This document shows positions 24,136-48,642 of a stretch of DNA of 64,000 nt, one piece after another. A program made the translations under genes and the position numbers. This stretch comes from Alienimonas californiensis. GTDB lineage: Bacteria > Planctomycetota > Planctomycetia > Planctomycetales > Planctomycetaceae. The notes under the pieces were generated by a model. The model had not been told where the DNA came from and ran no database searches. It was given only the letters and a program-made list of their open reading frames with translations. Where the stretch lies: contig NZ_CP036265.1 of the NCBI RefSeq assembly GCF_007743815.1, positions 2,286,323-2,350,322 on the forward strand, read 5' to 3'. Numbering within the stretch: the stretch's first letter is position 1; the number at the start of each line of letters is the position of its first letter.

Positions 24136-24540
24136 CTACCTGCGGTACTGCTCGTCCGTGACCGGTTCCAGCCAGTCCGCGGCGCTGCCGTCGACCGCTT
24201 CCTGCACGGCGAGATGGGTCATTCCCGTCGTGGCGGAGGCGCCGTGCCAGTGCTTCACGCCGGGCGGAAACCAGACGACGTCGCCGGGCCGGACTTCCTG
24301 AACCGGGCCGCCCTCCTCCTGCACCCAGCCGAGGCCGGCGAGCAGATAGAGGTGCTGGCCGACGGGGTGGGTGTGCCAGTGGGTGCGGGCGCCGGGCTCA
24401 AAGGTGACGCTGGCGATCGCGACCCGCGACGGCTCCTTCGGCGAGGCCAGCGGGTCCAGCCGCACGGCGCCGGTGAAGTACTCCGCCGGCGGCGTGGTCG
24501 AGGGATTCGAACCGACGCGGGTGATCTGGATCTGGGACAC
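24136..24540 (-). CDS. cupin, (R)-mandelonitrile-lyase-like
   Basis: 134 residues from a GTG at 24540. A single-domain cupin with both motifs: [19 protein letters not shown] (metal-binding His residues) and [16 protein letters not shown] (second motif and third His). The end [23 protein letters not shown] is the conserved tail of the small cupins annotated as (R)-mandelonitrile lyase. Those are Mn-binding and often sit with carboxymuconolactone decarboxylase-like proteins. The reaction here is unproven. It lies just downstream, same strand, of tRNA-Leu; the integrase frame runs into it out of frame. Confidence 0.85.
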
Positions 24541-26534
24541 GGTGCGGTCTCCTGGTCGAGCGGACGCATCTTGCGGAGGCGGTGCGGGCGGCGCGCCGGC
24601 GCACGATCCTCGCCGACGCCCGGACGATCCGCGAACGTCCCCCGGGACGTTCCGGGAACCAGCCCGCACCGCCGCACGACGGCCGCGAGCGGGGGCGGGA
24701 GAACCAGCAGCCCCGCCGCTCCGTTCCGCTCCGACGCCAGTACCCCCGAGACGCCCGCCCCCATGTGCGTTCGCCGCGGCCCGACAGTTCCCCAAGAACC
24801 GCCACCCGGGGCAACCGACCGACATTTCCACCGACGCCCGCCGTCCCGTGGAGTCACGACGAGCGCCTCAACCCCCACTCCGCCCACGAAACCAAGTGCC
24901 GGAGGTGGGACTCGAACCCACACTCGGGTTTCCCCGAAAAGGATTTTGAATCCTTCGCGTCTGCCATTCCGCCACTCCGGCAGGAGTGCCTCGTTCCCAA
25001 CGGACACGGCGTCCGGGGGTCGAGGTTCGCCCACTCTAACCCTTGAATCGTAGGTTGCCAGCCCGGCGGCGCCCGCGGGGGCGTCGCGGCGGGCGGACCG
25101 CGGCGAACGTGAACGCGTGCCCACGCGTTCCCGTCCGTCCCCGCCCGGACCGGCAACCAAACGGCAACCACCGTCCGGGTCGACCGACTGGAATAGCACG
25201 GGGCGGCCGGCGCCGCGGGGGAGGGCGTCGGCGGCGTCGGTGCCGGTCGCAGCGGACCGCTCGTCGGGGGAGTCCGGCACGGCCGGGACGGACGCCAGCG
25301 CCGCGCTCATGTCCCGCACCCCGGTGTGCGTGTAGCGGTTCATCGTCAGCGTGATGCAGGAGTGCCGGGCCAGCGTCATCGCGTCCTTCGGATGCACGCC
25401 GCTGTTCGCCAGCGTCGTGATGAAGTGATGCCGCAGGGCGTGGAAGTCGAAGTCCCGGCCGGAGGCGTCGGTGTAGGGGATGCCGGCGGCGGCGAGGTCG
25501 CCCCGCAGCATCTCCGCCGCGTGGCCGGACGCCGCCCAGCGGGAGGGCCACAACGGCTCGTCGTCGATGCGATGATCGCCCAGAACCGGCGCCTTCGCGG
25601 CGAAGGGCAGCGTGACGGGTTCCTCGTCGCCGAACGGATCGAGGGCGGCGGAGAGACGGCCCGCGATGTACACCCGCAGCCGCACGGCGAGGTCCGGGTG
25701 CAGGGGCAGCGTGGCGGTCTTGCCGTTCTTCGTCGCCCCGGCGGCGACCTTGACTGTGGGCGGGTCGGCGTCGAAGTCGAACGACCGCGGCGTCAGACTC
25801 GCCAGTTCCATCGACCGCAGCCCCGTGAACGCCGCCGTGCGGTACAGCAGCGCCCGCTGCGGACCGGACAGCCCTGCGGAGTCCGGCCCCGCCGTCGCGG
25901 CGGCCAGCAGGCGGGCGAAGTCGTCCGGGGGAAGGTCGCGGCGCTCCTTGCGCACGTCGTCCTTCGGGTTCATCTTCGACAGGTGCCCCAGCACGTTGTC
26001 CCCGCTCCGGCGGTTCTTCACCATCCACGTGCCGAACCCTTTGCAGGCGGTCAGGTAGGCGTTGCTCGTCCCGATCCCCAGCCCGTCCCGCCGGCGCTCC
26101 GCCAGATAGTTCGACAGCGCCGACGCGTTCACGTCGCGGGGCAGTCCGAACCCGCAGCCCTTCAACAGCGCCCTGCGCACCCGCATGAGCGTGGCGTTGA
26201 CGTAGTCGTCGGACCGGCCGCGGGCGGCGAGGTCGGCGCCGTAGTCGCGGAGGTGATCGGCCAGCGGCGTGCGGGCGTGTTCGGCGAACGGATCGGCCAG
26301 CCCGGCCCGGCCGCGTTCGGCCTCCACCTCCAAGTCCCGCAGCATCGCCAGCGAGGCGGCTTTATCACGCGCCAGCGTGGCGGTTTTGAGGATGCCGTCG
26401 GCGTCCCGATATTCGCCCCGCCACGTGCGGGACTTCGCCTTCGTTTTGACGGCGCCCGGGTCGGAACTTTTACAGCGTCGCCCCGTGGCTGGGTCGGCGT
26501 AGCGGGTGACGGTCGGTTTATAGAGGCGGGCCAT
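24255..26534 (-). CDS. tyrosine site-specific integrase, att core inside its reading frame
   Basis: A phage-type tyrosine recombinase that integrates and excises the element. The N-terminal ~85 residues are an arm-binding-like basic domain, a SAM-like core-binding domain lies at about 85-200, and the catalytic domain follows with R240 (TGLRSME), K near 269 (TKNGKTATL), H365 and R368 (HALRH), H391 (LARHS) and nucleophile Y401 (MNRYTH). The frame stays open through residues 516-530, encoded by the att core, then through tRNA-Leu, stopping only at 24255 (759 residues). In the excised circle the same frame would join 46037-45826 and end at 600 residues. The integrated form thus has a foreign C-terminus and overlaps the cupin gene out of frame. 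Whether the read-through tail is made is unknown. Confidence 0.88.
24897..24981 (-). tRNA. tRNA-Leu(CAA), integration site
   Basis: The minus strand gives acceptor stem GCCGGAG/CTCCGGC with discriminator A, anticodon stem AAGGA/TCCTT with loop TTCAAAA (anticodon CAA), a long variable arm (TTCGGGGAAACCCGAGT) and T arm GTGGG-TTCGAGT-CCCAC. CCA is not encoded. The 5' half of this gene, from the first base through the anticodon loop, is repeated at 46038-46075, so the gene is the target of the 21-kb element. The working copy therefore consists of a 3' half native to the chromosome and a 5' half delivered by the element. Confidence 0.95.
24944..24988. repeat. left attachment core (45-bp direct repeat)
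   Basis: 45 bp identical to 46038-46082. It runs from the anticodon loop of tRNA-Leu through its 5' end and 7 bp beyond. The identity begins exactly in the anticodon loop (TTCAAAA on the minus strand), the usual crossover position for tyrosine recombinases acting on tRNA genes. Weaker similarity continues to about 25130. Confidence 0.93.
25033..25061 (-). promoter_or_regulatory. putative tRNA-Leu promoter inside the integrase tail
   Basis: On the minus strand CTGGCA, a 17-bp spacer and TAGAGT lie 51 bp upstream of the tRNA 5' end; each hexamer matches 4 of 6 sigma-70 consensus bases. The same arrangement (CTGGAA, 17 bp, TAGAGT) is at 46127-46155 beside the second tRNA half. The position is conserved but the hexamers are weak. 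Confidence 0.4.
25152..25170. repeat. tandem GGCAACCA, candidate integrase arm site
   Basis: Two direct copies of GGCAACCA separated by 3 bp, 164 bp from the left att core on the integrase side. The same pair with a 4-bp gap occurs at 45958-45977, 61 bp from the right core. In the excised circle the two pairs would flank the core, as arm-type integrase sites do. Confidence 0.5.
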
Positions 26535-33200: not shown

Positions 33201-33292
33201 GGGTGCCCGTCCGGCAGACCCCACGCTTCGCCCGCAGTTACGTCTAGGCGGAAGGAATCGGCCCCGTTGACGGGGTACACAGTCGCCAGCAT
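30260..33292 (-). CDS. large element-encoded protein with repeated module and C-terminal winged helix
   Basis: 1,010 residues from the ATG at 33292; I do not recognise a characterised family. The start (YPVNGADSFRLDV) recurs as RPANGAEPFLLNV about 490 residues later, each followed by a Trp-rich beta segment, so the protein contains at least two copies of a module. Between them is a charged helical stretch (RERERREGDRAAAEAQRRKE). The last ~110 residues (FAGVTFSMTGRTRGRGWRIL, then TLGTYLSDLRGLLRDAFGI) look like a winged-helix DNA-binding domain. It lacks ATPase, nuclease or recombinase motifs that I can see. It lies between the small DNA-binding gene and a small conserved gene, so a part in replication or its control is possible. 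Confidence 0.6.
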   Translation of the reverse strand: MLATVYPVNGADSFRLDVTAGEAWGLPDGHPALSDRDALALSLADRATHAGWGLEDWDGPTLYPFVEGRWLLVGKSDDATTRGERAGVDGLWLSWRAAEDLIERCGGEIAPHDPGRWERLTRPPGRRRYAPEPATLRQGNRARWRCVLPPRGRVTLQFPGGRDDLDGREWYALADPAVDSLFGGERLLVVRDGADDWRRLLAVVPNAETARVCDAPHHHVQPLNDDAVRGLFADRGEPLPPCLDLPPGRTVAEQEEDAALARFNRYVRAATTMGGADQVPWPAAPYLICAEGAEFEFVGRHAERAERLIRGRLVGPMEAAGMLERASFFDGETGDAERLVGIGIDLYRRTFADFMERAGTDTQGEWWAEQFGEAASILPGRIAADLCGSFEGVEPDRALPDAGLSAMMDARLMRERERREGDRAAAEAQRRKERESRHDAKPEPPSDPPGPVTVRPANGAEPFLLNVADLPAGGWAELNDPPKGRLPLSSIESTGEPAPHWSMYRGRHLIAWPNAAPDAEPSVLLTYRVDEFGKGEPGPGEALGEWLDGETARRLEEWDGAVPDADATPPRPAKPAGERPAFLARTPPTFAPGEPVPVRHRFKVPPPFPATGPDGRPARIDTTAWDAWPLGTKGNPVEGLEDCTLYRVPPGHPAGNANAPLWRLVTRLEYEDPIAPFFPPPMVEETTFVDLTPEGAVRELTEAGRNLPRELAGAAPAPKGRGFGVVGWIEADGPNRRPVAIHAGPGGWERWELSSVGDPSRLSGRTEVAFYREPPDVSGGRPLWWRVESEFFYGSPDEIGEVERHAAWEVSGSAVREELRAAGKPVPRELDEPPDPDGPGPIAEGPPTAPSLSTAEPEQDAGSASAADGRTVEPTTRTADAAGANPADGRDGWEACGRWLFRRGEEAHFAGVTFSMTGRTRGRGWRILNELAAASGRTLTLSAAADAAAADRANPPDARTLGTYLSDLRGLLRDAFGISRDRDPLPPSGTGADRHVRLDEGLLEAAAAGR

Positions 33293-34872: not shown

Positions 34873-37800
34873 CTAGGATCGCAGCTTCAGCGGGCCGCCC
34901 GTCAGGTCGGGCGTGGGTTCTCCGGCGGCGACGGCAGCGATCAAGTCCGGCAGGCGTTGGGGGTCGTAGCAGACCTCGAATCGCCACTCGCCAAGCTGCT
35001 CCCAGTTGTTCACAGCCCGCACCCACTTCTCCGCGGCGGCGTGCTTCTGGCGGGTCTGTTCGTCCTCCTGCCCCTTCACCTCCAGCAGCAACGTGAGCGG
35101 GTCGGCACCGGGGCGGGAAACCCGGACGAGGAAGTCCGGCGTGTAGACGTGGGCGGTGTTGGCGTGGCGGTAGGGGATCAGCAGCCCCAGGTGGTCGTTC
35201 TTGGCGTGGCATGCGATCACGCCAGTGCTCGCCAGCAGTTCCAAGTGGAACGCGGCCGACTGCTCCCACGTCTGCGTGTCCGCGACCACGGCGTTGATGT
35301 GAGAGTAGAACGTCTCCCGGACCGGCTTGCGGGTCACGAACGTCACGTCGGCGGTGCTGCCGTGGTCGCTGCCCCGCTTCAACACCGGCAGGATCGGCGG
35401 CTCTCCGTCCTGCCCCTTCACGTCGATCGCTTCGGCGAGTCGATCGACGGCGAGGTTCATATAGCGGTCCAGCCCCAACTCCCGTTTGTTCTGGCCGGAG
35501 TAGTCCACCCGCTCGGCAGCGAACCGTTCGACCACCGCTAGCACCTGCGGGAACAGTTCGACCCGGTTCTGCCCCGTCAGCTTGCCGCCCCCCGGCCCGC
35601 CGCCGGACCCGTCCGCGGAGGTGGTCAGCCGATCGACCACGTCGCGGGCGATCAGGAAGTGAATGTGCTGGGGGTGCGTCTCCTCGTAGAACCGCTGCCG
35701 GTCCTGCACCTCAAACCGCAGCACCCCTTCGCTCCTCGCCGGCCCGCCCTCGCCGTAGCCGACGGATGCCCGCACGAACGTCGCGGTGGGGGTGTGGGAG
35801 GGGTCGATCTTGAGCTTCGGAACCTTGTCCAGGTCGCACACCACCCGGCCGCCGCCGTAGGCGAACGCATACGCTTCCACGATCGGGAACCGTATCTCAA
35901 AGTCGGCCCGCGCCGGCAGGGCCTGCACCTTGTTGAGCGGCTGATCCTCCGGGGCCTTCGTCCCCTTCGGACGCCCCTTGAACGGGATCACGCTGAACGG
36001 AATGCCGTACACGTCCACGCACTCCACCGGCAACCTGCCGGTCTCCGGGTCGGGGTCGTAGTTCATCCGGCGGAGTCCCCGCCCGACCACCTGTTCGCAG
36101 AGCAACTGACTGCCGAACGCCCGCACCCCCAGAATGTGCGTCACCGTGTTGGCGTCCCAGCCTTCGGTGAGCATCGACACGCTCACCACGCACCGTACCT
36201 TTTCGCCCGGTTCGCCCCTCACGCCGACGGTGGAGACGAGGTGTCGCAGGGCCTCGTCCTGCTCCACCGTCCGGCTGTCCACTCGCACGGTCCGCCGTTC
36301 GCCGGGGACGTTGGCGAACTCCGGGCAGGTTTCGCTCGGGCCGCAGACGGTCTCCGTCCGCTCCTTCCCGTCGTCCCCCACGACCGTCACCTCGCGGACG
36401 CCACTGATCCGGCGGTAGAACTCGTCGGCGATGGCGGTGCTGTCGCAGACCACGATCAGCACCGGCGGGGTTTTATCGGCCGTGTCCGACGCCCCCATGA
36501 TCTGCCCGAACCGTTCGACCCACTGATCGTAAAGCTGGCGGAGCGCGTCCTGCGCGTGCTCCCACGCCGCCTCCGGCTTCGGCTTGCCGGTCCGGCCCAC
36601 CAGTTCGCCGGGGGCCATCCCGTCCTTCATCGTCTGCCAGAGCCGGAAGTACCGCGGCTCCGGTCGGCCGGTGGTGTCCTGCACCGGCATCCGCGGCACC
36701 TTCACGATGCCGCTTTCGATCGCGTCCACCAGTCCGAAGTCGCTCACCAGCCAGGGGAACGGCACGCCCTCCCCGTGACCGCTGCCGGCGATGTAGAACG
36801 GCGTCGCGGACAGGTCCACCACCGCCCCGATCCCGCGCCCGCCCAGCGGCCCGCCCGCGGTTCGGCCGGCGGGGGCGTTGTTGATCCGGTCCAGCCCGGC
36901 GGTCCAGACGGTCGCGGTGCGGACCTCATCGCCGGCTTCTTTCTTCTCCTCCCGGTCGAGGTCGGCGATCTCCTCGTCGGCCTTCTGCTCCGACGCCTGC
37001 CGCCAGCAGTGGTGCCCCTCGTCGTTGAGCACCAGCAGGGGAAACCGGTCGGCGATCTCCTCCGGCGTGCCGAACTCCTCCAACACCCGGGCGGTGAAGT
37101 CGGCGGGGTCCTCCGGGGGGAGTTGGATCACCGGGGCGGTGACGCCGCCCTGCGTGTGTTCCCCCTCCGGGGCGAACTTGTGCCAGTTCGTCACCAGCAC
37201 CTTGCCGGAGCCGGGGAAGTCGTCGCGGTATTGAACCGGGATCAGGTCGAAAACCTTGTAGTAGTTTCCCGGCGAGTCGGGGATCAGCACCCCCAGCCGT
37301 TCGCGGACGGTGAGGTTCGGGCAGCAGACCAGCACCGCGTTGAAGAACTGCCGGCTGGCCGGGGAGCGGGAGCGATTGCAGAATGCCCAGGCGATCAGCA
37401 TCGCCATCACCAGTGTCTTGCCGCTGCCGGTCGCCATCTTGCAGCCCAGCCGGATCAGCGGCGTCGGGTCCATAATCCCGGCGACCGCCTCGTTCGGCCG
37501 GTCCAGCAACGTCTGTGCGAAGTCCTCCGGCTCGTCGTCGCTCCGGTCCGCGGTCAGGCTGAACTCACCGCCGGGGGCGAACGACGGCGGGCGGCCGTCC
37601 AGCATCGCTTTCAGGTCGTCGTCCGACAGCGAGAAGTTGCGGAAACCCGTCGCCGTGGATCGCCCCGGTACCCGCAGTTCCAGCAGGTAGATCAGCGTTT
37701 CGATCGCCTCCCGCTGACAGAAAAACAACCGGCGCTGCCCCCGCTCCGCCCGGCCCGAATCAGTCCAGTGCCGCAGCAGTTCTTTCGTGACCTTCGACGC

Positions 37801-38109
37801 CCCCCGGTAGTCCGCCTCCCGCCACTTCGTCACGTCCTCCCGCAGCCGGTTGACGACCGGGAAGTCCACTCGCTGTTCCTCCGCCAGCAGGCTGAGTTGC
37901 TGCCGACCGCGGGCGGCCCGCTTGGCCTCCTCCGTCTTATAGAAGAACCCGCCCGGCCGGCGGCCGGGGGTTTCGCTCGCCAGCCCGGTCGAGCGATCAT
38001 AGAACCAGTGCGCGTGCGGCTCCTCATAGGGGTTGCACAGCACCGGGTTGTCCGGCGGGACGATCGGCGGGGCGGCCGGTTCGGCGCCGGTCGGTTTCTG
38101 CTTCGCCAC
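34873..38109 (-). CDS. res: Type III-like restriction subunit (DEAD/DEAH helicase-nuclease)
   Basis: 1,078 residues from a GTG at 38109, one base after the Mod stop and 8 bp behind AAGGGGG, so translation is coupled. The SF2 helicase has Walker A ATGSGKT near 226 and a DEAD-like box NDEGHH near 360, then motifs of the second RecA domain (VSMLTEGWDANTVTHILGVR, QVVGRGLRRMNY near 680-700). The C-terminus has a PD-(D/E)xK nuclease site: TPDFLVRV near 990 and LLLEVKGQ near 1008. Sequence order and length match the BPTD_3080-type restriction enzymes that pair with Mod proteins. It cuts DNA lacking the Mod methylation after ATP-driven translocation. All catalytic motifs are intact. Confidence 0.88.
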   Translation of the reverse strand: MAKQKPTGAEPAAPPIVPPDNPVLCNPYEEPHAHWFYDRSTGLASETPGRRPGGFFYKTEEAKRAARGRQQLSLLAEEQRVDFPVVNRLREDVTKWREADYRGASKVTKELLRHWTDSGRAERGQRRLFFCQREAIETLIYLLELRVPGRSTATGFRNFSLSDDDLKAMLDGRPPSFAPGGEFSLTADRSDDEPEDFAQTLLDRPNEAVAGIMDPTPLIRLGCKMATGSGKTLVMAMLIAWAFCNRSRSPASRQFFNAVLVCCPNLTVRERLGVLIPDSPGNYYKVFDLIPVQYRDDFPGSGKVLVTNWHKFAPEGEHTQGGVTAPVIQLPPEDPADFTARVLEEFGTPEEIADRFPLLVLNDEGHHCWRQASEQKADEEIADLDREEKKEAGDEVRTATVWTAGLDRINNAPAGRTAGGPLGGRGIGAVVDLSATPFYIAGSGHGEGVPFPWLVSDFGLVDAIESGIVKVPRMPVQDTTGRPEPRYFRLWQTMKDGMAPGELVGRTGKPKPEAAWEHAQDALRQLYDQWVERFGQIMGASDTADKTPPVLIVVCDSTAIADEFYRRISGVREVTVVGDDGKERTETVCGPSETCPEFANVPGERRTVRVDSRTVEQDEALRHLVSTVGVRGEPGEKVRCVVSVSMLTEGWDANTVTHILGVRAFGSQLLCEQVVGRGLRRMNYDPDPETGRLPVECVDVYGIPFSVIPFKGRPKGTKAPEDQPLNKVQALPARADFEIRFPIVEAYAFAYGGGRVVCDLDKVPKLKIDPSHTPTATFVRASVGYGEGGPARSEGVLRFEVQDRQRFYEETHPQHIHFLIARDVVDRLTTSADGSGGGPGGGKLTGQNRVELFPQVLAVVERFAAERVDYSGQNKRELGLDRYMNLAVDRLAEAIDVKGQDGEPPILPVLKRGSDHGSTADVTFVTRKPVRETFYSHINAVVADTQTWEQSAAFHLELLASTGVIACHAKNDHLGLLIPYRHANTAHVYTPDFLVRVSRPGADPLTLLLEVKGQEDEQTRQKHAAAEKWVRAVNNWEQLGEWRFEVCYDPQRLPDLIAAVAAGEPTPDLTGGPLKLRS

Positions 38110-38110
38110 G

Positions 38111-41100
38111 TCAGGCCCCCTTCGGCAGTTCGTGCGGCAACTCATGCACGCGCATCACCTCGTTGCCGCGGGGGTCGATCACCTTCACGGCACAGCGTCC
38201 ATGTTGGCCGGCTTCAAACGGCAGGCTGACCTTGCCGGACAGCGCCGCGAACGCGTCCGGGTCCACCGCCCCCTTCAACGCCTTCGCCAGCTTGCCCCAG
38301 GCGTCCCGGTCCGGGAAGAACGCCTGAGAGACGCAGAATGTCCGCCCGTCGTAGTCGCAGTCGAGGAACCACGCCGCGACCTTCTCCGCCCCGGTGCTGG
38401 CGACCTCGCCAGTCTTCGGGTCGTACAAATCCATTCCCTCCATTACGGCCGTGAAGGTGTCTCCGTCGCTGCGCAGCACGTCCGTCCGCGGCTTGCCGAA
38501 CACCGTAAATAGCTGTTGCGAAGTCGTGTCCTTCCCGCCCTCTTTCAGCAGCCCGTCCATCGCCGGGTTCGCGTCCGGGCGAATGTGAGCGGCGTGAATG
38601 TTGAGCAGGGGGTTCGTCGCTTCGTCGATCACGGCCTGCGCGGCGCCGTCGAAACTGAACGCGGCAATGACGAGGTCTTCATATCGCCGCTGGGCGGGGC
38701 GGATCACCTCCTCCACCATCTTCGCGGTCACGCTGCCGTACTGCGGGCCGACCATCACGCCCACCGTGGGCGGGCCGTCGGGGTCGGCGTCTTCCCCGTC
38801 CGCTTCGGACCACCGCCCCTCCGCGTGCAGCCCAGTCGTCTCCCCGCCCAGCCGGTCCAGCCGGGAGAAGATCATCGAACGGTTGCCCAAGAACTGTACC
38901 CCGCCGCTCCGCAGCCGGGACAACATCGTGTCCAGGTAGGCTTCGGCGTTGGCGGCGTCCATCGCCCGGCGGGGGGTGACGGTTCGCACCTGCACCGCCG
39001 GCGGGGGTCCGTCGGCCGGGTCGAACCCGTCCGGTAGTTCCTCCGGGGCGCCGGCGAACTGACCGCTGCCGGGGTCGTCGTCGCCGGTTAGATCGTATTC
39101 CGCCGGCTGGACGGCCTCTACGGTGAAGGGGCCGCTGACGCGCACCCCGGTCCTCACTTCCTCCGGCTTGTCCACCAGCGTTTCACTCTCGGCGTGTTCG
39201 GCGATGCAGGCGTTGACCTGATCCATCTTCGCCCGCCACGCCGCCCGGTAGGCGTCTACGGCACCCGTCAGCGATTGCGGCCAGTCGGGATCGGCGTCGA
39301 ATGGCACGTGCCAATGCTCAAACCGGCCGTCCGGCGGCACGGCGTCCGCTTCGGCTTTGACGTGCTTCGCCTTCAACTTTGACCGTCCGGCGAAGGCGTC
39401 GGCGATCTGCTGTTTCGTCGTCCCCGGCAGCAGCCAGCGGCGGCGGTCCGCGTCAGTGGTGCTACGCAGCCCTTCGGACTGCATCTTCTCCGCCAGCTTG
39501 GCGGCGAGCTTCGCCCGCAGTGCGTCCGACACCTCGCCCAGCGCGGCGTTTACGTCCCGCAGCCGGTCCTCCAGGATCGGCCGGTGCCGGTCGAAGATCG
39601 GGTTCAGGTGCGTGTTGCGGGCGATGCTGCCCAGTGTGACGTGCGGGACGGTGGCGTACTCGAAGGTATGCGGTTCCTTCTCGCCCTTCGGTCCGCGGAG
39701 CCAGGTGCCGTGGGGGCGGGCAGCCTGCTCCTCCGGCGTGGCGGGGCGGAGCCGGTAGAGGGGGAACTTGGCGGTGAGAATCCGCTGCCGGGCCAGGGCG
39801 ACGGCGACGCGCGAGGTGTCAATCGTGATCCACCGCCGCCCCCACTGTTCCGCCACGAACCCTGTCGTCCCTGATCCGCAGGTGGGATCAAGGACGAGGT
39901 CGCCGGGGTCGGTTGTCATTAGCAGACAGCGCTCGATAACCTTTGCATTTGTCTGAACGCTATATAGCTTGTCGTCTGTAAATGCGCCGGTTTGCGTGTC
40001 GGTCCATACCCCCGAAAGAACTGTGTGCGGAAAATCGTCGTGGAAGCGAACGTATGCCAGAGAGTTCCTAGTCGGATATCCCAGCCGTTCGGCGTCAGCG
40101 AGCCGCGTTAGCCCCTCCTCATCGGTTTTGAACGTCCCGCGTCCAGGGGAGAAACGAATGCCATGCAGATCATATGCTGCTAAGTCCCCCGCTCCGCGCG
40201 GCCGCTGGCTGGTGAGATTGTCGTGTCGATAAACCTTCGCGTTGTCTGGAACATTCCCCTGCCCGCCCCGCTCGTCAGAGTCCATCACACGGCGTTCACC
40301 ATCTGCCAGTTCGAGACGGGTGTAACGCCCCCCTTTGTCGTCAGCTAAGGTGCGGGGCACGTGCAGTAGACGAACACGTGCTTGATCGCGGTCTTTGGCA
40401 TACCACAACAGATAATCCGCCCCAGCGGACAGCACGTCCGCCCCAAGGTTCGACGTTGTCTTGAATGGGATTATGGACAGCGAGTTTCCCGCGCCGAACG
40501 CCTCGTCCATCACCTGCCGAACGCGGTGCAGGTTCTCGTCGCTGATCTGAACGAACACGCTGCCGGTGTCGGCCAGCAAGCGGCGGGCGACGATCAGGCG
40601 GTCGCGGAGATAAGCGAGATACGAATGCACGCCAAGGTGCCAAGTGTCGCGGTAGGCCCGCACCTGTTCGGCCTCCCGGGTGAGGTCGTCCGGACGGTCC
40701 GTCACGTCCCGCTTGCCGACCTCCGGCTGAAAGTTGCTGCCGAACTTGATGCCGTACGGCGGGTCGAGATAGATCATCTGAACCTTGCCCTCCAATCCCT
40801 CCCGTTCGGCGAGGCTGCTCATTACGGTGAGCGAATCGCCCAAGATCAGCCTGTTCGACCAGTCGATCTTGTGCTTGTAGAACTGGACGGCTTCGCGGTA
40901 TTCCAGTTCCGGGTCGGCGAACAGGTCCCGTTGCACGTCCTCCCGTTTGGCGCAGGCGAGGATCGCTTCGGCGCTCAACCGTTCGTGGACGTGCAGGGCG
41001 ACGGGATCGGTTTGGAAGCGACCGCGGGCGTGATCCTCCCGCTTCCCGGCCCATTCCAGCCACGGCTCCCGATCAGCGAGCAACGCTTGCAGCCGGTCGG

Positions 41101-41332
41101 CCTCGTCATTGGTGAGGGCGCGCTGCCGGGCGATTTGCAGCAGGCGGACGTGCTCCCCGTCGGGATCGGACCGCAACACCGGATCGCGGCGGGGACTGTA
41201 GGCGTAGCTGGCCGGCGGGGCCGGGGGGGTGACGCCCTCCGATGCCAACGCCGCCGGCGGGTTGTTCGCCCGGTCGGCGGCGTGCCGGTAGGTGTCGGTC
41301 TCCGCGGCCGTCGCCTTCTTCCGTTTCGCCAT
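38111..41332 (-). CDS. mod: Type III-like DNA methyltransferase (Mod)
   Basis: 1,073 residues from the ATG at 41332 (MAKRKK). An amino-methyltransferase of the beta class: the catalytic DPPY is at about 190-193 and the SAM-binding DPTCGSGTTG at about 482-491, the same order as in Type III Mod subunits. The target-recognition region would lie between them. After about residue 600 the protein carries a long extra part, including a segment GPQYGSVTAKMVEEVIRPAQ, much longer than classical Mod proteins (~600-700 residues). It marks the element and host DNA and sets the recognition site for the Res protein encoded next. The product is probably N6-methyladenine. Confidence 0.88.
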   Translation of the reverse strand: MAKRKKATAAETDTYRHAADRANNPPAALASEGVTPPAPPASYAYSPRRDPVLRSDPDGEHVRLLQIARQRALTNDEADRLQALLADREPWLEWAGKREDHARGRFQTDPVALHVHERLSAEAILACAKREDVQRDLFADPELEYREAVQFYKHKIDWSNRLILGDSLTVMSSLAEREGLEGKVQMIYLDPPYGIKFGSNFQPEVGKRDVTDRPDDLTREAEQVRAYRDTWHLGVHSYLAYLRDRLIVARRLLADTGSVFVQISDENLHRVRQVMDEAFGAGNSLSIIPFKTTSNLGADVLSAGADYLLWYAKDRDQARVRLLHVPRTLADDKGGRYTRLELADGERRVMDSDERGGQGNVPDNAKVYRHDNLTSQRPRGAGDLAAYDLHGIRFSPGRGTFKTDEEGLTRLADAERLGYPTRNSLAYVRFHDDFPHTVLSGVWTDTQTGAFTDDKLYSVQTNAKVIERCLLMTTDPGDLVLDPTCGSGTTGFVAEQWGRRWITIDTSRVAVALARQRILTAKFPLYRLRPATPEEQAARPHGTWLRGPKGEKEPHTFEYATVPHVTLGSIARNTHLNPIFDRHRPILEDRLRDVNAALGEVSDALRAKLAAKLAEKMQSEGLRSTTDADRRRWLLPGTTKQQIADAFAGRSKLKAKHVKAEADAVPPDGRFEHWHVPFDADPDWPQSLTGAVDAYRAAWRAKMDQVNACIAEHAESETLVDKPEEVRTGVRVSGPFTVEAVQPAEYDLTGDDDPGSGQFAGAPEELPDGFDPADGPPPAVQVRTVTPRRAMDAANAEAYLDTMLSRLRSGGVQFLGNRSMIFSRLDRLGGETTGLHAEGRWSEADGEDADPDGPPTVGVMVGPQYGSVTAKMVEEVIRPAQRRYEDLVIAAFSFDGAAQAVIDEATNPLLNIHAAHIRPDANPAMDGLLKEGGKDTTSQQLFTVFGKPRTDVLRSDGDTFTAVMEGMDLYDPKTGEVASTGAEKVAAWFLDCDYDGRTFCVSQAFFPDRDAWGKLAKALKGAVDPDAFAALSGKVSLPFEAGQHGRCAVKVIDPRGNEVMRVHELPHELPKGA

Positions 41333-41631
41333 GCCGCCGGTCAATCAATCCGCAGTCTGTGAACGCCCCGCTCACCGCGGGATGGGGGCCGGCACGATGG
41401 CCACCCCCGCCAACAGGTGCAACGCCGCCCGGGCCGGTGGACTGATTGGTCCGTCCCCGTCGGGGGCCGATCGGGCGACGCGGGACTGTCGGCGCCCCCC
41501 CGTCCTCCCCAGAACGGACGCAACGAACAGCGGCACAAGCGGTTGCGCGTGGGGGTTTACATGTAAGCCGGTGCGGATCGCCCAGCCCATCGTGCAACCG
41601 ATATCTCGTTCCGAACCCGCGGACGTACCTA
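41333..41631. other. intergenic stretch upstream of mod, probable promoter region
   Basis: About 300 bp without a convincing gene. It is less GC-rich than the coding DNA, and open frames here have no protein-like pattern. It is the most likely place for the mod/res promoter, but I cannot name hexamers with confidence. Confidence 0.35.
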
Positions 41632-42087
41632 TCAACAATGGGGAAGGGCCGTGGTGCCCTCCCGGCACCCCCGTAGAGCGATCGACGGGCGGAACCCATA
41701 GGCCCGCCCGGCACCCCTGCACTGCCGGTACGGCACCGTGACGTTGAAGCCGACGTACCGCCCGCTCCCCTCGCAGTCTCCGCACGGCACCGTCGGCTCC
41801 AGGCGAAACGTCTGCCGGTCCGCGGTCGCCCCGGGCAGCGGCAGCACGTCGGCGGGTGGGACGTTCAACACGCCCCACAACCTCCGCAGTGCCTCCCCCG
41901 CGCTGGAGCCTCCCGCGGCGTACGGTCCCGCTTCGGCGGTCTGGCCTGCCCCCGCGATCCTAGCCTGCCCCCGCGATCCTGGCCCCGCCGGCGACGGAGG
42001 CATCCAAATGACGTGGCGAACTTTCGCCGGCGGCGATGCGGACCTGTACGCCTCTTTGATTCGCTGTAGGTGCACGGAGGACGGCAT
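41632..42087 (-). CDS. small protein with a partly lost DnaJ-type zinc site
   Basis: 151 residues from the ATG at 42087. The start (VHLQRIKEAYRSASPPAKVR) is helical, and the later part has CGDCEGSGRYVG, a CxxCxGxG motif as in DnaJ zinc centres and other small zinc ribbons. It is followed 15 residues later by YRQCRGAGRAYG, where the first Cys of the second CxxC is Tyr. The zinc site is thus incomplete or the gene is decaying. A 19-bp imperfect tandem repeat (41944-41981) sits inside it. No family or function is recognised. Confidence 0.45.
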   Translation of the reverse strand: MPSSVHLQRIKEAYRSASPPAKVRHVIWMPPSPAGPGSRGQARIAGAGQTAEAGPYAAGGSSAGEALRRLWGVLNVPPADVLPLPGATADRQTFRLEPTVPCGDCEGSGRYVGFNVTVPYRQCRGAGRAYGFRPSIALRGCREGTTALPHC

Positions 42088-42248
42088 TGCCGCAAACGAC
42101 GGTAGGGGAGTTGTCCAGGAATTCCACCGCCACCTGCACCGCGGCGTCGGCTACCTCGCAGGCGACCGAGGGATCAGCGGGGTGGACGACTTGATCGGTG
42201 GGGGCGTCTGCGGCGCCGTCGGCGCCGCGTCGTAGCCGCCGGCCGGCG

Positions 42249-44096
42249 TCATTCCTGCCGGTTGGCCCACCGGTCGGCCAGCACCGCAGCGAATCTGCCG
42301 AGATCCTCCCGCAGATCACCGAAGTCCTCGTCCGGATCTTCGGCGTTGCGGTTCTCGGCCATAGCGTAGGCACACAGCAGCAAGTCGATCCCGTCCTTCG
42401 CCGATTCCAGCAACCGGACGGCCTCATCGGGATCAACTCCGTCGCGGACAGCATCCGCGAGCGGTTGGTAGACCGACTTCACGAACGGGTGCCGGCGGTT
42501 GATCGTCACGGCAAGGGTGTTGGTCAGGTGGGCGACGTCCAACAGACTCTTGCCGGGCCAAGCTCCTTCGAACAATGCGAAAGGCTTCTGCCGGGCCCGT
42601 TCTACGAACTCCACCTGTTTGGCCGGGTCAGTCACGCCAGCCAGCTCCGCCGCCTGTCGGAGCCGCGTCTCCTCCTCCTCAGCAGTAATCCCGCGGCCGG
42701 CCAAGCCAGACGGGGATGAGGCCTTCGCCGCGGCCGCCAAGCTGGATACGTAGGACCGCCCCCCGGTGAGGTCCCCGCCCGTGGATTCGGGGCGGTTCTC
42801 CTTCCACAGCTTCCGCACCCGATCCCGCGCTTCTTTGACCGGGCGGATGATCGCATTGCGGAGTTGATCCCGCAGCTTCTCGACCGGCTCCGCCCCGCGT
42901 TTAACGTGCCGGACGTCGAAATACTCGTCTAGGGCGGGGGGGAACTCGACCTCCACGCCGATATAGCGGTCGATCTTGTCGACCCCCCCGGGCAGGAACC
43001 GCGGCACGGTGGTGTAGCTGATCTCCCGACCACGACGGAGGAAGCTGATCTTCCCGGCGTTTTCCGGGATATAAAGCCGCTTGAACAGCCGTTCCTCCCC
43101 CTCGCACGGCCCCTCCACGCCGCCGCCACCCTTCTGCCACCGCGTCTCCTTCGGAGTTAAGTAGACCCGCCACGTGACCTCCTCCCCGTCGACCGTCACG
43201 GTCCCGGTTTCCACCTCTTCGCCTTCCATGGTACGGACAGGCTCCCCTTTAGGCCGCTCGTCGTTGGCAATCCAGTAAGACTCCGGGTCGTCCAAGCGAA
43301 ACGTCGGATCGTAGGGGGCGAGGCTCTTGAGTTCTGGCACATCGTCCTTGGCGTCGCCGACCTGCCATTCGATATTCAGCCCGCCGTCGAGGTACCGCCG
43401 GTAAGCCCGCCGCAGGAAGAACTCGATGCCGGACAGCTTCTCGTCTACCGTCGAGCCGAACGATTTGTCGTCGTTCAGGCGGTCTAGCTTCCGCCACACC
43501 ACCAGCGTACCAAATTCACCTTCCGGCATCAGGTGGGCGAACTCCTCGGGGAAGCCGTCGACTTCCTCGACTTCGTAACCACACTGCGTCCCGTCAGCGA
43601 TCTCTGCCAGGTCGAGGTAGCTGCGGAACACTCGGCCATCGACGTTGTCCTCCTGGTGGGCCCACTGTTCCCCGGCGTCCCGATTCGCCCGAACGGCCTT
43701 CAAGTAGCGGGGTCGGGTGTAGACTTCCAACCGCTGGCACTGGCTAATGGTGGCCAGCTTGAAGCCGACCCCGTACCGGCCAACCGTCGTCCGGGACCCG
43801 TATCGGGTGCTGAAGCCGACCGTCAGCGTTTGCGGCAAGATGTTCGGCGGGATGCCGGTGCCGTCGTCGCTGACGGCCAGGGCGCTGAGGAACCGCCGCG
43901 TGTTCTTTTTGCGGCCTACTTTCCGATCCTCGACCCGATAGCCGATACGGACGTTTTTCGCCCCGGAGTCCAGCGGATTGTCCACCAACTCGCCGATCGC
44001 GTCGGCCAAGGTGAACCCGGAGTCCCGGAGGCTGCGGAGGGCGGTATCCGCCTTAATGAGTTCGGCGGTCTCGGAGGTGGTGAAATTGTCGGACAT
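42249..44096 (-). CDS. GHKL ATPase, MORC/Hsp90-like
   Basis: 615 residues from the ATG at 44096. The Bergerat ATP-binding fold is complete: N-box ELVDNPLDSGAKN near 35-47, DDGTGIP near 77, and the lid GRYGVGFKLATI near 105. MORC and MutL/Hsp90 proteins share this set; the long middle (WRVYLTPKETRWQ, FLRRGREISYTTVPRFLPGG) resembles the S5-type domain that follows in MORC-like proteins. The C-terminal ~130 residues are helical and charged. MORC-like ATPases recur in bacterial defence loci beside nucleases. Here it lies 102 bp downstream of a GIY-YIG nuclease gene and upstream of Mod/Res. Its job could be ATP-gated clamping of DNA. Confidence 0.82.
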   Translation of the reverse strand: MSDNFTTSETAELIKADTALRSLRDSGFTLADAIGELVDNPLDSGAKNVRIGYRVEDRKVGRKKNTRRFLSALAVSDDGTGIPPNILPQTLTVGFSTRYGSRTTVGRYGVGFKLATISQCQRLEVYTRPRYLKAVRANRDAGEQWAHQEDNVDGRVFRSYLDLAEIADGTQCGYEVEEVDGFPEEFAHLMPEGEFGTLVVWRKLDRLNDDKSFGSTVDEKLSGIEFFLRRAYRRYLDGGLNIEWQVGDAKDDVPELKSLAPYDPTFRLDDPESYWIANDERPKGEPVRTMEGEEVETGTVTVDGEEVTWRVYLTPKETRWQKGGGGVEGPCEGEERLFKRLYIPENAGKISFLRRGREISYTTVPRFLPGGVDKIDRYIGVEVEFPPALDEYFDVRHVKRGAEPVEKLRDQLRNAIIRPVKEARDRVRKLWKENRPESTGGDLTGGRSYVSSLAAAAKASSPSGLAGRGITAEEEETRLRQAAELAGVTDPAKQVEFVERARQKPFALFEGAWPGKSLLDVAHLTNTLAVTINRRHPFVKSVYQPLADAVRDGVDPDEAVRLLESAKDGIDLLLCAYAMAENRNAEDPDEDFGDLREDLGRFAAVLADRWANRQE

Positions 44097-44198
44097 GGCT
44101 GTCGTTTTCGTGTTGATCAAAGAAGGGAAAGTGAGGCTGATTACCGGGGGGGACACACCCCGAAATCGTGCAGTGAGAAGCTAAGCGTGAGCGTCGAT

Positions 44199-44525
44199 TC
44201 AGCTGCCGGGCGGGCGGCGGGGCAGGACGCGGTTCCACGGCGGGCGGAGCGATAGGTACGCCGCCCGCTCCAGCCGGTAGGCAGACCAAGGGCTGGGACA
44301 GACGATGGCGGCGAACTCGGTTGCCCCGCCCCCGACGTGCTGACTCAGGCGGATCCGCAGGTCCGTGTCACTGCGGCCAACGTAGATCCGCTGGCCTCTC
44401 CGAAAGAGTAGGTACACCCCGGGGTCCCCCCGCGGGATGCACGCCCGCACGAACCCACCCCGGAGGGGGAGCGGCCGGAGACGTAGCAACAAGCTCAGAT
44501 CGGAGTCGGTGGGACGAGCGGTCAC
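44199..44525 (-). CDS. GIY-YIG nuclease
   Basis: 108 residues from a GTG at 44525 that overlaps the regulator's stop (GTGA). All key residues of the GIY-YIG fold are present: G36-V37-Y38, Y48-V49-G50, the Arg positions 57/59 (DLRIRLSQH), the metal-binding Glu86 (RLERAAYL) and Asn98 (PPWN). It is a bare nuclease domain with no attached DNA-binding part, so targeting must come from a partner, perhaps the GHKL ATPase encoded next. Function: probably single-strand cleavage of DNA, in restriction of incoming DNA or in element processing. Confidence 0.8.
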   Translation of the reverse strand: MTARPTDSDLSLLLRLRPLPLRGGFVRACIPRGDPGVYLLFRRGQRIYVGRSDTDLRIRLSQHVGGGATEFAAIVCPSPWSAYRLERAAYLSLRPPWNRVLPRRPPGS

Positions 44526-45205
44526 GGCGTCACCTCGGTAGGAACCGCGGCCTTCACCTGCCGCAGGAGTCCGGCGATCTGGGACTGGAACTCCGCCCGG
44601 TCCCCGCACGAGAGGCACCAGTGGACCACGGCCAAGGCATCGGCCACTCCTTCACAGGCGGACAGAGCCTCCCGGGCCTGACGGACGACGCCCCGCAGCT
44701 GCCGCGGCTTCACCCCCAGCCGGACGGCCGCCGCCTCGGGACCTTCGGTGGAGTGCATCAGCAGCGCCGTCTGAAATCGCGGCGACAGGGACAGGAGGGC
44801 GGTGCGAAGCGTCGCGAGGGCGGCGGGAAACGCCTCCCGCAACTCGGCCCCCTCCGCCGGGTCGAGGCGGTCGTCGGTCGGCGGCACCACGTCCTCGAGC
44901 GGGACCGGCTCAGCCTTCAGATGTTCCAGCTTGCGGGCGTCCCGCTCAGCGGCGTACGCCAACTTCGGGCCGGTGTCGGATTCGCTGGGCCCGGCGTGAC
45001 GACGGTGCGGGTTGCGGAGCAGGGCGTCGAGCCCTTCCTCGAAGCAGCTAATCCGATAATTGCGACCGGCCTGGGGATACTTCAGGCGGAGCCGCCGCTC
45101 TTGGAGCAGAAACAGGGCGTAAACATAGCCCAAGCCGTGCTTTTCGACCAAGGGGCCGACATCGAGGTCAGCGCGCAGCCGCCCCGTGGGGGTGTAACGT
45201 TTCAT
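44522..45205 (-). CDS. sigma-70-like regulator (region-4 type)
   Basis: 227 residues from the ATG at 45205, preceded by GGAG with 6-bp spacing. The segment LRTALLSLSPRFQTALLMHS, then AVRLGVKPRQLRGVVRQARE, at about 145-190, is the pattern of sigma region 4 or an ECF-like helix-turn-helix, with the canonical gap before the second helix. An upstream helical domain (VEKHGLGYVYALFLLQERRL) might be region-2-like but no clear promoter-melting motif is visible. It overlaps the GIY-YIG gene by 4 bp and heads the cluster, so it probably controls or is co-made with the nuclease and ATPase. Confidence 0.6.
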   Translation of the reverse strand: MKRYTPTGRLRADLDVGPLVEKHGLGYVYALFLLQERRLRLKYPQAGRNYRISCFEEGLDALLRNPHRRHAGPSESDTGPKLAYAAERDARKLEHLKAEPVPLEDVVPPTDDRLDPAEGAELREAFPAALATLRTALLSLSPRFQTALLMHSTEGPEAAAVRLGVKPRQLRGVVRQAREALSACEGVADALAVVHWCLSCGDRAEFQSQIAGLLRQVKAAVPTEVTP

Positions 45206-46037: not shown

Positions 46038-46082
46038 TTTTGAATCCTTCGCGTCTGCCATTCCGCCACTCCGGCAGGAGTG
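46038..46082. repeat. right attachment core (45-bp direct repeat)
   Basis: A perfect copy of 24944-24988: the 5' half of tRNA-Leu from its first base through the anticodon loop, plus 7 bp of upstream flank. The 3' half is absent, so this copy cannot make a tRNA. Confidence 0.93.
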
Positions 46083-46346
46083 TCCCCCGCACCACGGACA
46101 CGGCGTCCGGGGGGCGGGGTTCGCCCACTCTAACCCTTGAATCGTAGGTTTCCAGCCCGGCGGCGCCCGCGGGGGCGTCAGTGCGGGCGGGCCGCGGCGA
46201 ACGGGGACGCGTGCCCACGCGTTTCCGTCCGTGCAGGCGCCCCATTGATCGGTTCACTGCGCCGCTCATCCGCCGCTCGCCTCCAGCATCGCCAGCACGC
46301 CGGCCTTCACCGGCTCCGGCGGCGTCGCCCGGGCGGGGCGCTTTGA
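46083..46346 (-). pseudogene. scar of earlier integration: int-tail flank and a second truncated int end
   Basis: 46083-46223 repeats the coding flank that precedes the att core in the integrase ([20 protein letters not shown] against [20 protein letters not shown]). 46346-46266 on the minus strand then reads FKAPRPGDAA, corresponding to the start of the displaced integrase tail, and, after an internal deletion that shifts the frame, VKAGVLAMLEASGG and a stop. This is what remains of at least one more related element that used the same tRNA. The anticodon-loop TTCAAA is kept at the start of the last piece while the tRNA 5' half beyond it is gone. Confidence 0.65.
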
Positions 46347-46572
46347 ACCCGGGCGGGGACGGCGGGCGACTTCGAAGGCGTCCAGTGCGGTTTGAGACGG
46401 CGTCTCCTGAGAGAACCGCCATCGTGAACGGCGGCCCGTTCTACTCCTCCGTCGCCCGCGGCATCGATCGGACGGAGAGTCCCGCGGGAGGGGCCCGGCG
46501 GCGTCGCCCGCGGCCGCGAGGCTTGATTCGCCCGGTTGGGTTGTGGAGGACGGGGGGCTTGGCCATGTTGCT

Positions 46573-46582
46573 CAAACGTTTG
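46573..46582. promoter_or_regulatory. LacI-type operator palindrome upstream of the ribose cluster
   Basis: CAAACGTTTG, a perfect 10-bp palindrome with the central CG typical of LacI-family operators, stands 43 bp before the lacI-type start codon. It fits autoregulation by the regulator encoded next and control of the whole rbs cluster. No second copy is seen inside the cluster. Confidence 0.6.
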
Positions 46583-46624
46583 CACAAGGCCCGCTCGTTT
46601 CCGGCTGTTCGTGACGTCCCGCCC

Positions 46625-47716
46625 ATGTCCGCCTCGAACCTGACGGTCACGCTTGGGGACGTCGCGGCGGCCGCGGGGGTGAGCGTGTCCACCGCGTCGC
46701 GGGCTTTGAGCGGCAACGCGAAGGCGTGTCGGATCAGCGACGCGACGGCGGACCGGGTCCGGAATCATGCCCGGCGGCTGGGGTTCCGGCCAAACCTGCT
46801 GGCCCGGTCCCTGCAGTCGCGGCGGAGCGGGCTGCTGGGAGTCGTCGTGCCGGACGTGGCCAACCCGTTCTTCGCCGCGATCGCCAAGGAAGTGACGCGG
46901 GGGGCGGAGGAGACCGGGCGGAGCGTGCTGCTGGCGGACAGCGGGGAGTCCAGCGACCGCGAGGTCAAGCTCGTCGCCGAGCTGCAGGCCCGGCGGGTGG
47001 AGGGGCTGGTGGTCTGCCCGGTCGGGGTGGACTCGGACCATCTGGAGGCCGCGAACGCCGCAGGGACGCCGGTCGTGGTGGTCGACCGCGGGTTTCGGGG
47101 CGGGTCGCTGCCGACCGTCACGTCGGACCACCGCGGCGGGGCGGAGCGGCTGGTCGAGCACCTGGTGGGGTTGGGGCACCGGGCGATCGGGATCGTGCAG
47201 GGGCGGCCCGGCACGCTCCCGAACGACGACCGGCTGCGGGCCGCCCGCCGCACGTTGGCCGCCGCCGGGGTGCCGGCCGACGACGTGCCGGTCGCGGGGG
47301 ACGGGTTCACGGAGCGGTCCGGGTACGAGTCGGCCGCCCGGCTGCTGGCGGATCGGCCGGACGTGACGGCCCTGTTTGCGTTCAGCACGCCGAACGCATT
47401 CGGGGCTTTGCGGGCCGCGGCGGAGGCGGGGAGGTCCGTGCCGGACGATCTGGCAATGGTCTGCTTCGACGAGGTGCCGCACGTGGAGTTCCTCCGCGTT
47501 TCGCTGACCGCCGCCGCCCAGGACGTGCGGCGATTGGGGCGGACCGCGGCAGAGGTGATGGCGGAGCGGCTGGAGACCGGCCGCCCGCCCCGGCGCCGGC
47601 GGTACACAGTGCCGGTGAAGTTCGTCGCCCGCGCCTCCTCCGGCGGGCCGCTCCCGGGGGCCGGGGCGAGGCGGACCCGCTCGCGTGAGCTGGTCCCGGC
47701 GGGGGCGCCGCGATGA
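46625..47716 (+). CDS. LacI-family transcriptional regulator of ribose genes
   Basis: 363 residues from the ATG at 46625. The N-terminal helix-turn-helix is VTLGDVAAAAGVSVSTASRA with the hinge region ATADRVRNHARRLGFRPN; a periplasmic-binding-type ligand domain follows (GVVVPDVANPFFAAIAKEVT, VVVVDRGFRGGSLPTV, AMVCFDEVPHVEFL). It binds DNA as a dimer and responds to a sugar, probably ribose given the downstream genes. Its stop overlaps the ribokinase start (ATGA). A GC-rich C-terminal tail of about 30 residues has no known role. The frame is open upstream, but only this start leaves the HTH at the N-terminus. Confidence 0.88.
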   Translation: MSASNLTVTLGDVAAAAGVSVSTASRALSGNAKACRISDATADRVRNHARRLGFRPNLLARSLQSRRSGLLGVVVPDVANPFFAAIAKEVTRGAEETGRSVLLADSGESSDREVKLVAELQARRVEGLVVCPVGVDSDHLEAANAAGTPVVVVDRGFRGGSLPTVTSDHRGGAERLVEHLVGLGHRAIGIVQGRPGTLPNDDRLRAARRTLAAAGVPADDVPVAGDGFTERSGYESAARLLADRPDVTALFAFSTPNAFGALRAAAEAGRSVPDDLAMVCFDEVPHVEFLRVSLTAAAQDVRRLGRTAAEVMAERLETGRPPRRRRYTVPVKFVARASSGGPLPGAGARRTRSRELVPAGAPR

Positions 47717-48642
47717 GTCCCGCCGCCCCCCGCGTGGTCGTCCTCGGTTCGCTCAACACGGACCTCGTCGTCCGCTGCGCCGAACTGCCCGCCCCGGGGC
47801 AGACGGTCGCCGGCCGGTCGGTCGCGGAGTTCGGCGGGGGGAAGGGGGCGAATCAGGCGGTCGCCGCGGCGCTGGCCGGCGGGGACGTGGCGATGGTCGG
47901 GGCGGTGGGGGAGGACGCGGCGTCCGGGCGACTGGTCGACGGGCTGGTCCGCCGGGGGGTGGACTGCGGGGCGGTGGTGCGGCGGGCGGGGACGCGGGGC
48001 GGCACGGCCGTCATCACGGTGGACGACCGTGGGCAGAACTCGATCGTCGTCGTCCCCGGGGCGAACGGCACGGTCGGGCCGGCGGACGTCGCGGCGGCGG
48101 AGGCGACGATCGCGGCCGCGGACGTCCTGCTCGTCCAACTGGAGATCCCGGTGGACGCCGTCCTCGCGGGCGTCGCGGCGGCGAAGCGGGCGGGGGTGCG
48201 GGTGATCTTCGACCCGGCCCCGGCGGTCGCCGGCCTGCCGGACGAGTTGTTCGCGGTCGACCTGCTGTGCCCGAACGAGACGGAGGCCGCGATCCTCAGC
48301 GGACTGCCGGTGAAGAGCCCCGAAGACGCCGAACGGGCCGCCGACCGCCTCCGGGAGCGCGGGGCGACGCGGGTGGCCGTGACGCTGGGGGACGCCGGCA
48401 CGCTGCTGTGCGACGCCGCCGGCGCCCGGTTGATCCCGCCGTTCCCCGTGATCGCCGTCGACACCACCGCCGCCGGCGACGCGTTCGCCGGGGCTCTCGC
48501 GGTGCGGTGGGCCGCCACGGACGACCTCGACGCCGCCGTGCGGTTCGCCAACGCCGCCGGGGCTCTTGCCGCCTCCGCCGCCGGAGCCCAGGACAGCATG
48601 GCGACCGCCGCCGACATCCACGCCCTCATGGCAGACCGCTGA
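47713..48642 (+). CDS. rbsK: ribokinase
   Basis: 309 residues of the PfkB/ribokinase family, which phosphorylates ribose to ribose-5-phosphate with ATP in the cytoplasm. The start VVVLGSLNTDLVVRCAELPA and GGGKGANQAVAAA (about 41-53) are the sugar-binding signatures. DTTAAGDAFAGAL near 255 is the C-terminal PfkB signature with the catalytic Asp; the usual GAGD has Ala first (AAGD), a form also seen in working ribokinases. It is coupled to lacI upstream (ATGA) and to rbsB downstream (TGATG). Confidence 0.92.
   Translation: MSPAAPRVVVLGSLNTDLVVRCAELPAPGQTVAGRSVAEFGGGKGANQAVAAALAGGDVAMVGAVGEDAASGRLVDGLVRRGVDCGAVVRRAGTRGGTAVITVDDRGQNSIVVVPGANGTVGPADVAAAEATIAAADVLLVQLEIPVDAVLAGVAAAKRAGVRVIFDPAPAVAGLPDELFAVDLLCPNETEAAILSGLPVKSPEDAERAADRLRERGATRVAVTLGDAGTLLCDAAGARLIPPFPVIAVDTTAAGDAFAGALAVRWAATDDLDAAVRFANAAGALAASAAGAQDSMATAADIHALMADR

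Follow-up and report, generated by a model that had tools for sequence, protein, structure and literature searches.

The question raised by a 64,000-nucleotide stretch of the Alienimonas californiensis chromosome (NZ_CP036265.1, positions 2,286,323 to 2,350,322; hereafter the window, in whose coordinates positions are given) is whether five neighbouring genes on its minus strand form a single defence system. The sequence-only reading of this DNA had proposed a five-part composite of a sigma-like regulator, a GIY-YIG nuclease, a GHKL ATPase, a methyltransferase (Mod) and a helicase-nuclease (Res). All five genes are present among the open reading frames (ORFs) of the window, on one strand. They are two units and no five-part set: a cassette of helix-turn-helix (HTH), GIY-YIG and GHKL genes, and a Mod/Res pair. 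With moderate confidence, the cassette is interpreted as a module that restricts DNA in partnership with the dndABCDE system of DNA phosphorothioation (PT). The cassette and its nearest neighbour consist of the following features.

44522..45205, minus strand: gene of a small helical protein of 227 amino acids (aa) with a possible C-terminal HTH (HTH_28 at 0.048, sub-threshold)
44199..44525, minus strand: gene of a stand-alone GIY-YIG nuclease, 108 aa (profile of cassette relatives, E = 4e-19), its start overlapping the HTH gene by 4 bp
42249..44096, minus strand: gene of a MORC-like GHKL ATPase, 615 aa (HATPase_c_3, 6e-16)
41969..42196, plus strand: dndE relic, C-terminal part (tblastn to the host DndE, E = 1.8e-38)

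The 4-bp overlap and the 102 bp between the GIY-YIG and GHKL genes agree with the earlier description, as does the position of Mod and Res further along the same strand. The 916-bp gap between GHKL and Mod holds the dndE relic, which had been overlooked. A scan for promoters and terminators gave matches not above chance.

The cassette recurs in other genomes beside dnd genes. The main survey comprised 249 genomes from the order of Sphaerisporangium, that genome included, with GHKL matches accepted at E<=1e-40. GHKL was found in seven genomes and DndC in 17, and all seven GHKL genomes were among the 17. The chance of this overlap is 1.8e-9, or 2.6e-8 without Sphaerisporangium, the starting point of the search; both figures overstate the link, as the genomes are related. 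dndE is located 0.2-5 kb from the cassette in six of the seven. In three genomes (G963, G805, G854) all genes share a strand in the order dndB-dndC-dndD-dndE-HTH-GIY-GHKL, and dndE is separated from HTH by 287-310 bp. HTH-GIY-GHKL follow dndE ~1.6 kb downstream on the same strand in G946. The orientation towards dndE is convergent in G932, at 5.0 kb, and in Sphaerisporangium, where HTH-GHKL lie 235 bp away. A Nocardiopsis plasmid carries HTH, GIY-YIG (4-bp overlap) and GHKL genes, its GHKL being 38-40% identical to that of the window. The HTH/GIY-YIG overlap of 4 bp occurs in six of the eight GIY-bearing cassettes, the window included; it is missing in G946 and G932, whose HTH genes are of another sequence type and were recognised by position. 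Eight related stretches of 14-20 kb each were examined (the Nocardiopsis plasmid, Sphaerisporangium and six more genomes of its order). The linkage of the three upstream genes held there insofar as nuclease and ATPase are encoded together elsewhere and the cassette genes recur together without Mod/Res; it did not extend to a demonstrable homology of the window HTH protein. Because the cassette sits beside dnd in several other genomes, it is probably an undescribed cutting partner of dnd and not part of the adjoining restriction-modification (R-M) genes. The three cassette proteins match no Dnd model. In two actinomycete cassettes (L035, 11160-13169; L036, 11391-13553), a ~700-aa protein with a sub-threshold DndB match follows GHKL.

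The dndE relic comprises 76 residues matching residues 57-132 of the host DndE (137 residues), of which 57 are identical (75%; 168/228 on the DNA level). Its N-terminal part is missing, and the frame ends at 42235. Relic and GHKL are convergent with 13 bp between their stops, an orientation as in Sphaerisporangium. The relic shares only 34-43% identity with DndE of 11 other loci and has no match in two further loci; the best match is the chromosomal DndE of the host. With the proteins of two dnd panels, no other dnd match was obtained in the window. Because the relic best matches the host DndE and is placed convergently as in Sphaerisporangium, the cassette probably once stood, judging from the sequences, beside a dnd locus of the subtype that the host now carries elsewhere. 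This full locus occupies C1:3.619-3.634 Mb, at a distance of about 1.3 Mb from the cassette. It encodes a PbeA-like helicase-nuclease, DndB, DndC and DndD (PADLOC), the last three above the NCBIfam cut-offs. The host DndE is 46% identical to DndE of Sphaerisporangium, and further homologues of Sphaerisporangium proteins are DndA (47%), a dnd-associated methyltransferase (36%), a CxC-type ATPase (26%) and its DndE-like partner (32%), the CxC name being assigned by eye and from a comparison with PMC10853773. DndC is present in 10 of 170 genomes of the host family and was not found in G001, a genome of the same genus. In the surveyed order, the cassettes occur beside dnd genes or in the same genome as these, and the window cassette has a dndE relic in cis and the full locus at a distance.

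The ATPase shows intact GHKL (Bergerat) ATP-site motifs, invariant in 10/10 proteins, and a MORC-type module, features that assign it by sequence to the MORC-like GHKL ATPases. It is 34-42% identical to nine relatives. Profile searches of the PDB yielded MORC4 as the best match (6e-11), besides topoisomerase VI-B (7e-9). A structural model (pLDDT 61) resembles Hsp90 (top match), SMCHD1 and MORC; its confidence is low and it carries little weight. No fused nuclease was recognised in the 615 aa, in line with the sequence-only reading. In a tree, the window GHKL groups with six actinomycete sequences from cassette or dnd loci (support 98/98), while the GHKL proteins of G946 and G932 fall with Vibrionaceae and not with the window and the other actinomycetes. 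Membership in MzaB of the MZA system was rejected, as the score of 43.6 bits compares with a cut-off of 850, though this is the best NCBIfam and PADLOC match; no other Mza protein was among the matches listed for window proteins.

As had been recognised before, the nuclease is a bare GIY-YIG domain; all of its catalytic residues are kept. Nine residues (G, Y, Y, G, R, R, H, E, N) are invariant in 8/8 GIY-YIG proteins, the window protein included, and the GIY/YIG motifs together with the catalytic R, E and N identify it as a predicted GIY-YIG nuclease. Identity to the seven cassette GIY-YIG proteins is 37-45%. A profile of these seven relatives matches it alone among 309 window ORFs of at least 60 aa (E = 4e-19; runner-up 0.3). 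The best PDB profile match is the GIY-YIG domain of UvrC (2e-4). The window protein passes none of the curated family cut-offs, Pfam included, and the Pfam cut-off is also failed by one relative. The PADLOC candidate family PDC-S14 aligns to 31 of its residues (4e-4). A Rhodococcus plasmid also has a GIY-YIG match, and the gene set there contains no annotated ATP-binding gene of the cassette kind.

The first gene had been labelled sigma-like, a label that found no support: the product matches no sigma family and has only the sub-threshold HTH match. Its model is all-helical (pLDDT 52), of low confidence and given little weight. The gene occupies the same cassette position as the HTH genes of the relatives, and a profile of six actinomycete cassette HTH proteins finds GerE at 0.09. 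From sequence and position, the product is a putative DNA-binding subunit or regulator.

Several observations weigh against a partnership with dnd. Homology of the window HTH protein to the cassette HTH proteins was sought by hhalign (probability 1%) and hmmsearch (0.5 or worse); phmmer gave 0.003, only within eight chosen proteins, and homology is not shown. The window GIY-YIG protein is without the C-terminal CxFC found in 7/7 others, and the window cassette does not adjoin an intact dnd operon. Sphaerisporangium has no GIY-YIG protein matching the cassette profile. The dnd genes of G881 are on another contig than the cassette; the dndC contig ends in a transposase-like gene. DndC is absent from the Nocardiopsis plasmid (it is not among the 41 records of the DndC search, and the chromosome lies outside this result). 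Ten of the 17 dndC genomes are without GHKL. A sample of 396 Actinomycetota genomes yielded Sphaerisporangium alone at E<=1e-60, and the cassette is rare outside its order. The GHKL relatives in G271 (34%), Agrobacterium, G1229, G1109, G1215 and G1181 have no panel gene, dnd or ssp, in their vicinity, and that of G025 has only a panel match of 0.009 nearby.

GHKL is also infrequent around the window, which is included in each of the following counts. It was found in 2/294 genomes of the phylum sample (1e-20), in 6/347 of the class sample (1e-40), the other five no better than 1e-45, and in 2/170 of the family sample (1e-60), where that of the window is the only close one. A single-sequence GHKL scan of genome contigs gave no match and an alignment-based scan one locus; no GHKL match was confirmed in viral contigs.

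ATPases of the MORC and MutL types act as DNA clamps and can cooperate with a nuclease that is a separate protein. Because of this property, and because other PT restriction arms pair a nucleoside triphosphatase (NTPase) with a nuclease, a model is proposed in which GHKL scans and GIY-YIG cuts. DndABCDE would put the sulfur mark on the host DNA. The MORC-like ATPase would clamp and probe DNA, using ATP, and on DNA without the mark it would license the small GIY-YIG nuclease to cut. The HTH protein, made with the nuclease from overlapping genes, may help to place GIY-YIG, and the proteins may form one complex that would serve in phage defence. In the window, the dnd neighbours would have been lost except for the dndE stub, with Mod/Res now beyond it within the island. 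If the window copy is active, the mark would most likely be supplied in trans by the chromosomal dnd locus, which has the DndE subtype of the stub. The window cassette is best read as a PT-coupled restriction module, in trans or stranded.

The strongest rival is a suicide or back-up effector: the cassette would be silent beside dnd, and once a phage disables dnd, sensed by the ATPase, the nuclease would attack DNA, that of the host included. Such a suicide role has been proposed for stand-alone URI/GIY-YIG nucleases at dnd borders (Rakesh et al. 2024; PMC10853773), where the genes are sometimes on the opposite strand, as is the case for GHKL in Sphaerisporangium and in the window. However, dndE precedes the cassette on a shared strand in three genomes, and a dedicated ATPase and HTH partner would suit a complex that scans DNA more than they would a bare toxin. 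This rival is considered unlikely. Less likely still is a stranded passenger, inactive or decaying in the window since the loss of its dnd neighbour, while relatives may function. The dndE stub and the shortened C-terminus of the window GIY-YIG agree with decay, but the three ORFs are open, the catalytic residues of ATPase and nuclease are kept, and the host dnd locus has the same DndE subtype.

The remaining proposal joins the cassette to the Mod/Res pair.

38111..41332, minus strand: Mod, type III-like N6/N4 DNA methyltransferase (PF01555, N6_N4_Mtase, 6.5e-29; PADLOC MTase_III, 1e-173)
34873..38109 (start also possible at 38145), minus strand: Res, BPTD_3080 helicase-nuclease (NF046055, 882 bits, cut-off 800)

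A five-part composite of these genes and the cassette is highly improbable. In its favour, the genes share one strand and one island, the GC contents of cassette (65.9%) and Mod/Res (67.4%) are below that of the left part of the island (73.0%), and type III-like R-M genes with MORC-like ATPases as neighbours have been described (Iyer et al. 2008; PMC2292703). Against it, the 916-bp gap contains a convergent gene relic, no Mod/Res of the window kind was found in the eight cassette stretches, no GIY-YIG or GHKL of the cassette kind occurs at four inspected Mod/Res relatives, and this context rejects the composite in favour of dnd as the recurrent partner. The four relatives are on plasmids, inspected out of 53 records with a match, and Mod and Res relatives are close together on 4/4. 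Mod/Res is predicted to be an ordinary type III-like R-M pair, a separate unit of the same island. Upstream of the plasmid-borne Mod/Res relatives in L050 and L051 there are two extra large genes, a sign that the conserved R-M set may be larger; their products are a PLD-family protein plus a helicase in the case of Shinella and two hypothetical proteins in that of Mycobacterium avium.

Both units are carried by an island at tRNA-Leu, which spans 24.94-46.15 kb of the window.

24896-24981, minus strand: tRNA-Leu(caa), left island end
24944..25056: left direct repeat (attachment site), 113 bp, 92% identical to the right copy, overlapping the 5' half of tRNA-Leu(caa)
24255..26534, minus strand: integrase gene of the island (Phage_integrase 1.6e-11, residues 201-404)
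46038..46150: right direct repeat (attachment site), 113 bp, 92% identical to the left copy

The mobile-element setting assumed in the sequence-only reading is borne out by these repeats, the tRNA gene, the phage-type integrase and an island-free site in G001. There, a match to window 24895-25078 is followed by 7 bp and a match to 46495-47964, the island being absent between; the comparison covers one same-genus genome and one junction, and the G001 DNA on the other side of tRNA-Leu does not match the window. The integrase frame is open through the attachment repeat and tRNA-Leu as a 759-aa ORF, with the true 3' end not fixed. Two minus-strand genes in 26605-29699 show similarity to phage families, among them ones annotated as primase or polymerase/primase (phrog_29234, 8e-61, function not known; phrog_19930, 8.5e-24; phrog_239, 1.4e-11). 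With integrase and primase-type phage matches, the island resembles an integrative element of the satellite type. A 1010-aa gene (30260-33292) has no match in Pfam or PHROGs.

Among known systems, DndFGH and SspFGH are likewise three-gene partners beside dndBCDE or sspBCD. They differ in their components: DndH has a HerA/FtsK ATPase and its system a restriction-endonuclease domain (PMC10853773), SspF carries a Walker A motif and SspH is FtsK-like (PMC8092258), whereas the cassette combines a MORC-like GHKL ATPase, a GIY-YIG nuclease and an HTH protein. TIGR03238 (DndFGH) was matched in 0/8 genomes, but in no control genome either. PT restriction arms (DndFGH, DndI) couple an NTPase to a nuclease, sparing sulfur-bearing self DNA (PMC11662687). 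IscS-DndBCDE-DndI and SspABCD-SspE are similar to the cassette in an NTP-using nuclease tied to PT marks; DndI, however, is a single DUF262-HNH protein (PMC11662687), and the cassette has a separate ATPase and nuclease of other folds. The URI nucleases at dnd borders likewise place GIY-YIG beside dnd (PMC10853773), and prokaryotic MORC/paraMORC proteins are MORC-like GHKL ATPases whose gene neighbours include nucleases and R-M systems (Iyer et al. 2008; PMC2292703), with a superfamily II helicase as partner in about 70% of the neighbourhoods (PMC2292703).

The terms GHKL, MORC, HATPase, HSP90, gyrase, MutL and topoisomerase are absent from the main text of Rakesh et al. 2024 (PMC10853773), as are Dnd, phosphorothio and URI from the accessible text of Iyer et al. 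2008 (PMC2292703). In the accessible text of PMC13299392, on dndC and phosphorothioation, "MORC" occurs only inside an author's name, and in that of PMC3506569 only in the title of a reference. No paper linking GHKL with phosphorothioation, or dndBCDE with GIY-YIG by those words, was found in the open-licence literature. GIY-YIG near dnd is already in print; no paper was found there on a MORC-like partner, and absence from print is not proved. The earlier statement that the set corresponds to no named system is supported for the three-gene cassette, for which no named system of the same composition was found.

Plasmids of Hymenobacter and Aminobacter (L010, L012) encode GHKL relatives (~26% identical) beside SspBCD, together with a helicase and a predicted endonuclease, either PLD-type or of another kind. 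On three Vibrionaceae plasmids (L007, L008, L009), a GHKL relative is located 0.6-1.5 kb upstream of a DndC-like gene. The DndC-like proteins match PADLOC DndC at 3e-21 to 5e-27, yet are below the NCBIfam DndC cut-off, and no dndB, dndD or dndE match to the panel was obtained in these stretches. A wider tie of the GHKL family to PT chemistry is suggested, not shown, by such neighbourhoods, and the seven more distant relatives that have no convincing PT gene close by speak against a general rule. On a tentative reading, judged less likely than not, the MORC-like ATPase family would be the engine of several PT-coupled defence systems: at dndABCDE, where HTH and GIY-YIG accompany it; at sspBCD, where its companions are a helicase and a nuclease, PLD-type or other; and in Vibrionaceae, with the DndC-like enzymes. 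If true, some solitary dndBCDE clusters would find in this family the restriction arm that they lack, and prokaryotic MORCs would read a mark on the DNA backbone.

dndBCDE clusters that stand alone, with no dndFGH, have been described, above all in Actinobacteria (PMC8569181). For some of them, the linked nuclease and MORC-like ATPase represent a concrete, testable candidate for a restriction partner. On this reading, the apparent five-gene novelty of the window becomes legible as the history of a dnd partner cassette which lost its operon and kept a dndE stub. In eukaryotes, MORC ATPases are chromatin proteins; if the proposed partnership is true, it would tie MORC ATPases to the sensing of a DNA backbone mark in bacteria.

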